NCBI GenBank assembly: GCA_026004655.1
Contig: BPJO01000015.1
Location: forward strand, 27,282-91,281
DNA length: 64,000 nucleotides
From: Phycisphaerae bacterium
GTDB lineage: Bacteria; Planctomycetota; Phycisphaerae; Tepidisphaerales; Tepidisphaeraceae
Reading direction: 5' to 3'
This document shows positions 31,775 through 33,918 of the stretch, one piece after another (position 1 is the first letter of the stretch; every line of letters begins with the position of its first letter). The notes beneath the pieces were generated by a model. It worked only from the letters and a program-made list of their open reading frames with translations. It did no database searches and was not told where the DNA came from. The translations under genes and the position numbers were made by a program.

Positions 31775-32583
31775 GACTTGCGTCGGCGTCCGAGCAGACC
31801 CGTCGTCAGAAGTCCTAGTCCGGTCAAAGCAGCTGCTGGTTCCGGAACGACCGTAAGGTTATCAATCGCCACATAAGTCGGAGTATTAATGCCGAACATC
31901 CCCGTATCACTGGATGTAAAACTGATTCGCAACGATACCGCATTGGCGAGAGGTGTTAAATCGACTAATTCCCACGTATCGATGATATAGTCCTGGGAAT
32001 TATCGACGAACCGATAATCGGCCAGGTAAAATTCCACCGGTGTTCCGGTTACATTTCCTGTTCCGTTTGGACCGTCATAACCAGTGAAAATGACACTGAA
32101 ATAATCCGGATCATTCCCCGTCGTCCCGCCGAATTTTTTACTGAATACGGATCCGCTCAGCATATCCAGAGCGGCATATGTTGTATTCGTCACTCGAACG
32201 GAGACCGGCGTCTGTCCCAAGGGCAGGTTAATAAAATCATGGCTGCCGTCGTAACCGACTGCGTAGTTGCCGTTGCCTCCAAACCCGGTTCCGGTGTAGG
32301 CAGCATACTGATTGGTATATCCCGGAGTGGTGGTATCGTTGACGTTAGAATAGCTCCAACCGTTCCAATACCCACCGAAATCGGAATTATAACTGTTTCC
32401 GAATCCCGCCCCGCCGCTGGACCAACCACCGGTATTGGTCGTAGGACCGCCGTTATAATAAGAATTAGACCCCAAAGACAGATCTTCGAAATCGATCACG
32501 GTACTGCCTGATGAAATCGTGGCCGTACTCAATAAACTCAGACTAACCAGCACGAATTGATGTGTTTTGTTGCTACGAATCAT
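31771..32583 (-). CDS. PEP-CTERM protein with DUF4465-like domain
   Basis: A 270-residue exported protein. The ATG at 32583 is chosen because GAGGAG lies eight bases before it; an upstream in-frame extension lacks this. The signal peptide ends near residue 28 (ATISSG). The mature domain has FEDLSLGSNSYYNG, then YWNGWSYSNVNDTTTPGYTNQYAAYTG and NYAVGY, the pattern of DUF4465, a beta-sandwich surface domain. The tail VVPEPAAALTGLGLLTTGLLGRRRKS is a PEP-CTERM signal. It is the second gene after a cobalamin riboswitch, 40 bases downstream of another PEP-CTERM gene. A role in capturing corrinoids at the cell surface is my inference from that position. Confidence 0.85.
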   Translation of the reverse strand: MIRSNKTHQFVLVSLSLLSTATISSGSTVIDFEDLSLGSNSYYNGGPTTNTGGWSSGGAGFGNSYNSDFGGYWNGWSYSNVNDTTTPGYTNQYAAYTGTGFGGNGNYAVGYDGSHDFINLPLGQTPVSVRVTNTTYAALDMLSGSVFSKKFGGTTGNDPDYFSVIFTGYDGPNGTGNVTGTPVEFYLADYRFVDNSQDYIIDTWELVDLTPLANAVSLRISFTSSDTGMFGINTPTYVAIDNLTVVPEPAAALTGLGLLTTGLLGRRRKS

Positions 32584-32623
32584 AATTTTCTCCTCATTTT
32601 TCATCGAATTAAATCCAATCATT

Positions 32624-33451
32624 TCAGACTAATTTTCGCCGACGGCGGAGTAACACTCCCGACGCAATTCCCATCACACCAAGGATGGAAGGTTCGGGCA
32701 CCTGGTTGATCACACCAATCCCGTCCAAATCAAACCCGCTGGAGGCAAATGGGGTACTGTATGGATCGTTAATAACCCGACCGAGTGAATCCAATGATGG
32801 AATGTATGAAGGGTTGCCCGGAGCCGCGTCAATCCGTCCGACAACATCAATGACACGAACATGGGTGATATGATTCAAATCCAATGTCGGTCCGGCCAGG
32901 GATAACAGATCGTCAAGATCAAAAGGCGTTCCGTACCCCACCCGATACTTACCCGCCAGGTTGTGTAGATTGGTCGGATCCAGCAACCCAAATCCACCGA
33001 CTTGAGTCGTTGTCTGAGTTTCCGAGTAAGCGGGAAAACGGAAAAAGTTTATCCCATTAGAGCTGACTTCGACAAACGCTAGTTCCAGAAACGTGTCGGA
33101 AAATCCGTTTTCGAAAACGGCAAAATCGACACCAGGACCGTTTCGGATCGGTTGATCAAAAGTTAGGGTCGCGAAACCACCATCACCGAGGCTCACCACA
33201 GCAGTGGTGGTCGTACCTGCGGATCCAAAGGCATCGGACAACACACCGAAACTCGCCAGCGGCCCCGTCGGATTGTTGATATCCTGCGGTCCTCGGACAA
33301 GAGTCCCCCCAGTGGCCCATCCGACAAACCTTGAATCGTTATAAGGAATCGCGGTTGAACCGACCTGACCTGCAGCCGGAGCGTAGGGTCCGGCCTGAAC
33401 TATTCCTGCAAATGCAGATATGGCACTTGCAGCCCAAAAAATATGACGCAT
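32624..33451 (-). CDS. PEP-CTERM surface protein under a cobalamin riboswitch
   Basis: A 275-residue exported protein with a short signal peptide (cleavage after SAFAGIVQA, near residue 20). The mature part contains LGDGGFATLTFDQPIRNGPGVDFAVFENGF and LAFVEVSSNGINFFRFP, a beta-rich cell-surface family that I have seen with DUF4465 neighbours but cannot name. The C-terminus VPEPSILGVMGIASGVLLRRRRK is a PEP-CTERM tail. AAAGAGG precedes the ATG. It is the first gene after the riboswitch and terminator at 33484-33877, so its expression should fall when adenosylcobalamin is plentiful. No TonB receptor or BtuCDF gene is adjacent. Confidence 0.85.
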   Translation of the reverse strand: MRHIFWAASAISAFAGIVQAGPYAPAAGQVGSTAIPYNDSRFVGWATGGTLVRGPQDINNPTGPLASFGVLSDAFGSAGTTTTAVVSLGDGGFATLTFDQPIRNGPGVDFAVFENGFSDTFLELAFVEVSSNGINFFRFPAYSETQTTTQVGGFGLLDPTNLHNLAGKYRVGYGTPFDLDDLLSLAGPTLDLNHITHVRVIDVVGRIDAAPGNPSYIPSLDSLGRVINDPYSTPFASSGFDLDGIGVINQVPEPSILGVMGIASGVLLRRRRKLV

Positions 33452-33483
33452 GACAAACCTCTTTCCCTAGTCGCGAGGGAACC

Positions 33484-33525
33484 AAAAACCCTCGTCCTGC
33501 GAGGCAAAGCCCGAGAAGCCGAGGG
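33484..33525 (-). terminator. Intrinsic terminator of the cobalamin riboswitch leader
   Basis: On the minus strand CCCTCG (33520-33525) pairs with CGAGGG (33489-33494), enclosing a smaller inner stem, and is followed directly by TTTTT (33484-33488). It lies 180 bases after the aptamer and about 33 bases before the first PEP-CTERM gene, where an expression-platform terminator belongs. Confidence 0.7.
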
Positions 33526-33705
33526 TCGAGGTCTGTGCAGAATAGCAAACCACTTCCGGAGCGTATCACTCACGGAACGATCTTATGTCATGCCAGTCTT
33601 CGAAGCCCGGGCGTCCCAAAGCCCAGTGAGCACCAACCACGTTCGGACTCACTTGCTTATCGCGAGGACGAAACCAAGCGGTAAACGCAACACACGTTTA
33701 CCCAC

Positions 33706-33877
33706 GCAGGCAGGTCTTCTGGCTCGGGATTTTTCGTGCTCGCCTTCCCATCACCGGAGGGTGACAGTGGCATCGTGAGCACGAAAAGGATAATCCCTTA
33801 CAGCGGCGCGTCCGCGTCGGATTTTCACCGACTTCCCTTCGTCGCGATTTCTCTCGCGACGGGCATCAGCCGCCTGC
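33706..33877 (-). ncRNA. Cobalamin (adenosylcobalamin) riboswitch aptamer
   Basis: Read on the minus strand, all conserved blocks occur in order: GCAGGC opening the P1 stem (33872-33877), AAGGGAAGTCGGTGAAAATCC, then CGCCGCTGTAAGGG, GCCACTG, GGTGATGGGAAGGC, and AGCCAGAAGACCTGCC closing with GCCTGC (33706-33711), which pairs with the first block. This is the B12-box architecture of class-I cobalamin riboswitches. An 8-bp hairpin (33680-33702) follows directly, and a U-tract terminator lies further on, implying transcriptional control. It precedes two PEP-CTERM genes. Confidence 0.95.
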
Positions 33878-33889
33878 GATACATCAATT

Positions 33890-33918
33890 AGCGTATCTCA
33901 AAAAAATCTGTTTTCAAG
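33890..33918 (-). promoter_or_regulatory. Promoter of the cobalamin riboswitch transcript
   Basis: TTGAAA (33913-33918) and TACGCT (33890-33895) on the minus strand with a 17-base spacer. Predicted transcription start near 33883 would fall just before the P1 stem of the aptamer at 33877, which fits well. The -10 box is weak. Confidence 0.45.

Follow-up and report, generated by a model that had tools for sequence, protein, structure and literature searches.

The 64-kb stretch of DNA analysed here, called the window, originates from a planctomycete of the class Phycisphaerae and carries on its minus strand a cobalamin riboswitch that is followed by three genes, which encode a predicted distant relative of the B12-binding protein BtuH (P1), a DUF4465 protein of the BtuJ type and a pseudopilin. 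As judged from sequence comparison and structure prediction, this unit is probably repressed by B12 and serves to capture corrinoids at the surface of an organism in whose genome no TonB plug was matched. If true, surface capture of B12, which is lipoprotein-style in Bacteroidota, extends to Phycisphaerae and other non-Bacteroidota by a different way of anchoring, and the large P1 family, which neither Pfam nor NCBIfam covers with a dedicated domain, acquires a likely function. New within the literature examined are the proposed link of this large unnamed family to BtuH and the conserved riboswitch-BtuH-BtuJ-pilin unit outside Bacteroidota, separate from TonB receptors. In the open-licence PMC literature no report was found that links pseudopilins, cobalamin and planctomycetes, nor any on cobalamin riboswitches in planctomycetes or on PEP-CTERM proteins with a pseudopilin.

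The regulatory element is well defined. A scan of the window with the Rfam covariance models gave a single match at gathering scores, which is a significant, full-length match to RF00174 at 33692–33892 (minus strand; 89.4 bits against a gathering score of 31.5; E 8.9e-21; model positions 1–189 of 189). This bears out the cobalamin aptamer that the original prediction, made from the letters of the window, had placed at 33706–33877 on this strand, and, as was also claimed, the riboswitch leads into two open reading frames (ORFs) for PEP-CTERM-type proteins on the same strand. Based on the RF00174 match, corrinoid-dependent control of the downstream genes is predicted. A terminator-like hairpin with a T-run at 33490–33504 (minus strand), located by pattern scan and by folding the RNA of 33452–33560, lies at the correct position just 5' of the P1 gene and is a candidate expression platform. 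The leader end, 33452–33560, folds only modestly better than shuffled sequences (z −1.8).

The second gene (31771–32583, minus strand) encodes a DUF4465 protein of 270 amino acids, counted from an ATG at 32583 that is preceded by GAGGAG; the longest frame starts at 32622. What had been described as a DUF4465-like domain matches PF14717 far above its cut-off (171.3 against 25 bits), and solved DUF4465 structures are matched as well, the best being PDB 9hmu (E 3.5e-21). The HI-loop motif N/G-TPxY of these proteins, defined in PMC13398666, is present as NTPTY, together with the conserved tyrosine (GINTPTYVAIDNL in the translation). In vitro binding of B12 was reported for eight divergent DUF4465 members, with B12-bound crystal structures of three (PMC13398666, PMC12751083), and one of the binders, 'Pan', is from Mucisphaera calidilacus (PMC13398666), the genus of which a taxonomy look-up places in Phycisphaerae. 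Since published members bind B12, a corrinoid-binding role for this half of the pair is already known for the family, and the DUF4465 protein of the window likely binds B12 too. The original prediction was unaware of these published binders and also missed the pseudopilin gene. The protein shares its domain family (PF14717, IPR027828) and the NTPxY loop motif with BtuJ1 and BtuJ2 (PMC12751083, PMC13398666), and its gene is under a cobalamin riboswitch, like that described for B. thetaiotaomicron. It differs from BtuJ1 and BtuJ2 in having a PEP-CTERM-like tail rather than a lipoprotein signal, and its gene is paired with a BtuH-like gene and a pilin gene, in a locus without a TonB receptor. C-terminal sorting motifs as such occur in 38% of 824 DUF4465 members (PMC12751083).

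The first gene (32624–33451, minus strand) encodes P1, a protein of 275 amino acids in which nothing beyond PEP-CTERM was found among Pfam and NCBIfam domains. The P1 family is large, as 7,996 of 8,000 scored candidates proved to be related. A profile of diverse family members matched one PDB sequence only, BtuG1, within its BtuH domain (E 2.9e-5), in an alignment over part of the domain, of profile positions 27–137 with BtuG1 373–497. Structure comparison suggests that the P1 model has the fold of the B12-binding C-terminal domain of BtuH: it most resembles the B12-binding domain of BtuH2 and the BtuG1 H domain, and B12 binders lead the structural matches by 1.6–2.8 Z units, at 17–18% identity over aligned residues for these two domains. 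From family profile and predicted fold, P1 is thus predicted to be a distant BtuH relative. Besides these similarities, P1 and the BtuH2 and BtuG1 H domains have in common that they belong to surface-type proteins of B12-riboswitch loci (PMC8941943, PMC10404256). In contrast to BtuH2 and BtuG1, P1 is a single-domain protein without PKD or beta-propeller parts, carries a PEP-CTERM tail and has very low identity.

The third gene (30935–31774, minus strand) encodes a pseudopilin of 279 amino acids; at its start the ORF shares four bases with the end of the DUF4465 gene, but translation may begin further in. The prepilin N-methylation motif (PF07963, 31.7 bits, cut-off 21.2) and PF07596 (28.6 bits, cut-off 23.3) are both matched, and the H-X9-DG spacing is formed by H229, D239 and G240, of which H229 and D239 are invariant in relatives. 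TIGR04294 was reported for 23 of 101 relatives of this pilin and not for the pilin of the window. The N-methylation motif and the H-X9-DG spacing are shared with the H-X9-DG (DUF1559-type) pseudopilins of planctomycetes and relatives, whereas the pilins of B12 loci form a lineage of their own with many further invariant residues. For a tree, 40 pilins were kept from 48 pilin loci, eight being dropped because they lacked the motif, were short or scored at most 150 bits to a profile made from these same pilins. In this tree 39 of the 40 form one clade (support 99/92; L040 is the exception) that excludes nine other pilins passing the motif filter, among which six come from the genome of the window, a result that is favoured by the score filter, of which the labels are not independent.

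The arrangement is conserved within the class, by which Phycisphaerae is meant throughout. The P1 profile matched 137 of 397 class genomes at E ≤ 0.001, with many matches partial and weak, and 71 genomes including that of the window reached 60 bits. In descending order of score, 41 of the other 70 provided stretches around P1 (G624 was skipped, its P1 being cut by the contig end). Most of these loci have DUF4465 either adjacent to P1 or fused with it, and in 33 a pilin gene follows within 400 bases on the same strand. In the remaining eight, the sequence stops no more than 200 bases from the pair (L146, L162), P1 and pilin share one frame (L176), the pilin lies 1.2–3.8 kb downstream (L024, L152, L158), or no pilin was found (L160, L175). 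Among 14 loci from other non-Bacteroidota, seven have a pilin by the same 400-base rule; in L028 and L096 it overlaps an over-long frame, in L027 and L040 it lies upstream, and L076 has a weak match only, on the opposite strand.

The riboswitch recurs as well. In 31 of the 41 class loci it precedes the first gene on the same strand by no more than 1 kb or overlaps a start that is over-long, and in L176 and L177 it lies 1.3–1.4 kb upstream. L152 has 113 bases before a first P1 copy, with a riboswitch directly after that copy, and the other seven loci have at most 412 bases before the contig ends. Wherever a class locus has over 412 bases of upstream sequence, the riboswitch is therefore present (33 of 33). 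In named genomes, 55 of 80 loci were examined; here 43 have a riboswitch upstream on the same strand and two have one that overlaps an over-long start. None was found upstream in the other ten, three of whose genomes have no riboswitch match at all. The places in named genomes were matched by coordinates, so that a different contig is possible for the minus-strand rows L044, L052 and L067; eight loci that were scanned directly gave the same places. The pair thus regularly occurs with a riboswitch, both in the class and in named genomes, and because of this recurrence chance adjacency of riboswitch and genes was rejected.

The main difference from the BtuB/BtuG corrinoid uptake loci of Bacteroidota, where P1 relatives also occur in riboswitch loci, concerns the receptor. 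With a receptor profile of Bacteroidota origin, for which the seed was a confirmed Flavobacterium TonB receptor encoded next to P1, receptor-like ORFs were found in 44 of 65 Bacteroidota stretches (stretches were 3–26 kb long) and pilins in none of the 65. The class stretches, window included, gave the reverse picture, with no receptor-like ORF and a pilin above 80 bits in 38 of 42, and so did the other non-Bacteroidota (0 of 14 and 12 of 14, the weak L076 match being counted). It is a puzzle that a pilin gene occupies the place of the Bacteroidota receptor gene. Elsewhere in the window's genome, methionine synthase MetH (1009.3 bits over a partial sequence, cut-off 1010.85) and the C-terminal subunit of methylmalonyl-CoA mutase with MeaB are encoded, and the gene of a BtuF-like binding protein adjoins that of a BtuC-like permease, neither protein reaching its equivalog cut-off. 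It is equally puzzling that B12-dependent enzymes, capture proteins and an ATP-binding cassette (ABC) importer are present and yet no TonB plug is detectable: PF07715 gave no match in this genome, which is 93% complete (PF00593 was not searched genome-wide). CbiC gave no match either, and the two BtuF-type proteins are encoded on contigs C16 and C30, whereas the window is on C15, which agrees with the earlier statement that cobalamin genes are lacking nearby; other btu and cob genes were not searched for.

These findings can be combined in the following scheme. When B12 is scarce, the transcript would read past the terminator before the P1 gene. Both capture proteins would then be exported and kept on the outer surface by their PEP-CTERM tails (dockerin-like or type IX secretion system tails elsewhere), possibly with help of the pseudopilin in export or display. 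Bound corrinoid would go on to the BtuF/BtuC-like ABC importer, whose genes lie elsewhere in the genome, and, once imported, could be used by MetH and methylmalonyl-CoA mutase. The corrinoid-capture role that the original prediction had proposed gains support from the published DUF4465 binders, including the Mucisphaera protein, and from the predicted links of P1 to BtuH.

Several observations weigh against this scheme. The U-tract terminator that had been proposed is rightly placed, but terminator-like patterns are no more common than in shuffled sequences (3 found, mean of 4.5 in shuffles), and the claim of a separate promoter could not be confirmed, as the scan upstream of the aptamer on the minus strand found no sigma-70-like consensus. 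Of the two claimed PEP-CTERM tails, that of P1 barely passes the Pfam cut-off (20.9 against 20.7 bits; TIGR02595, 23.1 against 16), whereas that of the DUF4465 protein falls below it (13.2 bits), plain as it is by eye, with VPEP, a hydrophobic part and RRR. A search with the single P1 sequence found no PDB relative, and Foldseek with the P1 model returned BtuH2 at ranks 16 and 18 only (E about 0.01), amid CBM32/discoidin folds. The comparison of P1 with BtuH2 covered profile and fold; in BtuH2, B12 is contacted by Asn399, Tyr510, Trp511, Trp577, His476 and Gln333. Since the genome of the window is incomplete, absences from it are provisional. Finally, in the same genome five of nine unrelated PEP-CTERM genes have a pilin gene on the same strand within 1.5 kb, and the pilin of the B12 locus may be ordinary PEP-CTERM baggage. 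For this control, PEP-CTERM genes were found by regular expression in 464 kb of the genome (20 stretches including the window), which is not a random sample, since L187 and L201 were picked for PEP-CTERM tails shown earlier and the window is included; one further match, at window position 22740, was dropped as not being a PEP-CTERM tail. A pilin paired with PEP-CTERM cargo is thus a general feature of this genome.

A serious, although less probable, alternative is that a conventional receptor or porin that escaped detection moves corrinoid across the outer membrane, and that the operon only adds surface capture; the apparent absence of TonB components would then be an artefact of divergence or incompleteness. 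The 93% completeness, the restriction of the genome-wide search to PF07715 and the presence of BtuF/BtuC-like genes would fit this explanation, as would the finding of PF07715 somewhere in the genome in 32 of 60 P1-bearing class genomes. Against it, no plug was found in the other 28, of which five are single-contig (G638, G519, G621, G630 and G642, with an estimated completeness of 87–95%), and in the four genomes that have P1 and a plug on one contig (G057, G127, G469, G665) the two are separated by about 19 kb or more. For comparison, PF07715 occurs in 6 of 20 genomes of the window's own family that have no P1 match. By sequence identity G638 is strain ZRK32, of the genus Poriferisphaera, and thus a member of Phycisphaerae. 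The ZRK32 paper names the strain P. heterotrophicis.

It is unlikely that P1 is a CBM32-like carbohydrate-binding adhesin whose B12 control has a different purpose, for instance attachment to partners that produce B12, with the DUF4465 protein as the sole B12 binder. The Foldseek ranking would suit such a role, but the only significant sequence match of the P1 profile is a BtuH domain, B12 binders head the structural matches, and P1 and DUF4465 go together in most class loci.

Even less probable is that planctomycetes, verrucomicrobia and their neighbours acquire B12 without TonB, by a machine in which BtuH/BtuJ-type surface catchers loaded with corrinoid are pulled through the outer membrane by a dedicated, B12-repressed pseudopilus that replaces BtuB/TonB. 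The opposite distribution of receptors and pilins, the P1 genomes without a plug, the single lineage of B12-locus pilins and the pilins at six class loci where neither capture protein has a PEP-CTERM tail by regular expression (L125, L147, L167, L173, L174, L180; the tails of L156, L171 and L179, also missed in this way, are PEP-like by eye) would agree with it, but it is opposed by the pilins beside unrelated PEP-CTERM genes, the plugs in 32 of 60 P1 genomes, the filtering of the tree by a profile of its own pilins, an uninformative pilin fold search and searches for parts of such a device that covered the pilin gene but no motor, secretin or retraction genes. Because five of nine unrelated PEP-CTERM genes also adjoin a pilin, the pilin of the B12 locus more likely serves display or secretion than forms an uptake pilus, and the pilin as proof of such a pilus was rejected as a main claim.

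H-X9-DG-type pilin genes beside unrelated PEP-CTERM genes can be seen at 13120–15971 of the window and in L187, L195 and L201. The shared frame of L176 (112–2088; 658 amino acids) is either a natural fusion of P1 and pilin or an assembly effect. A ComF-like gene lies 3' of the pilin gene on the same strand in 11 loci (L144, L147, L151, L153, L155, L164, L168, L169, L173, L179 and L180); the one tested, of L179, has a double zinc ribbon and a phosphoribosyltransferase domain. A link to competence was considered, and the gene was kept merely as a conserved neighbour. In the window, closely spaced genes continue past the pilin on the same strand (26168–30948, minus; by eye DUF5522, a MoxR-type ATPase, DUF58 and a transglutaminase), so that the B12-controlled transcript might reach further.

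Other riboswitch loci show some variation. L177 (1162–8601) has two cobalamin riboswitches in 8 kb, each before its own PEP-CTERM gene set that ends in a pilin gene, and in L175 (7120–7699) six Acido-Lenti-1 RNA matches (RF01687) lie behind a P1/DUF4465 pair without pilin. The only other cobalamin riboswitch in the window's genome, on C16 (L001, 1501–2969), is located about 570 bases before a 229-amino-acid frame that matches only residues 52–204 of 383 of the class I ribonucleotide reductase beta subunit; it looks like a truncated nrdB and is possibly what is left of a decayed, B12-controlled nrdAB. A further unnamed PEP-CTERM family with a NEAALVI motif occurs in B12-riboswitch loci (L040, 7089–7898; L177, 2492–3238; L158, 5428–6114; L035, 7127–7918) and matches parts of long P1-containing Bacteroidota proteins (e.g. 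in L053, L068, L075 and L077), which makes it a candidate for a third B12-related surface domain.
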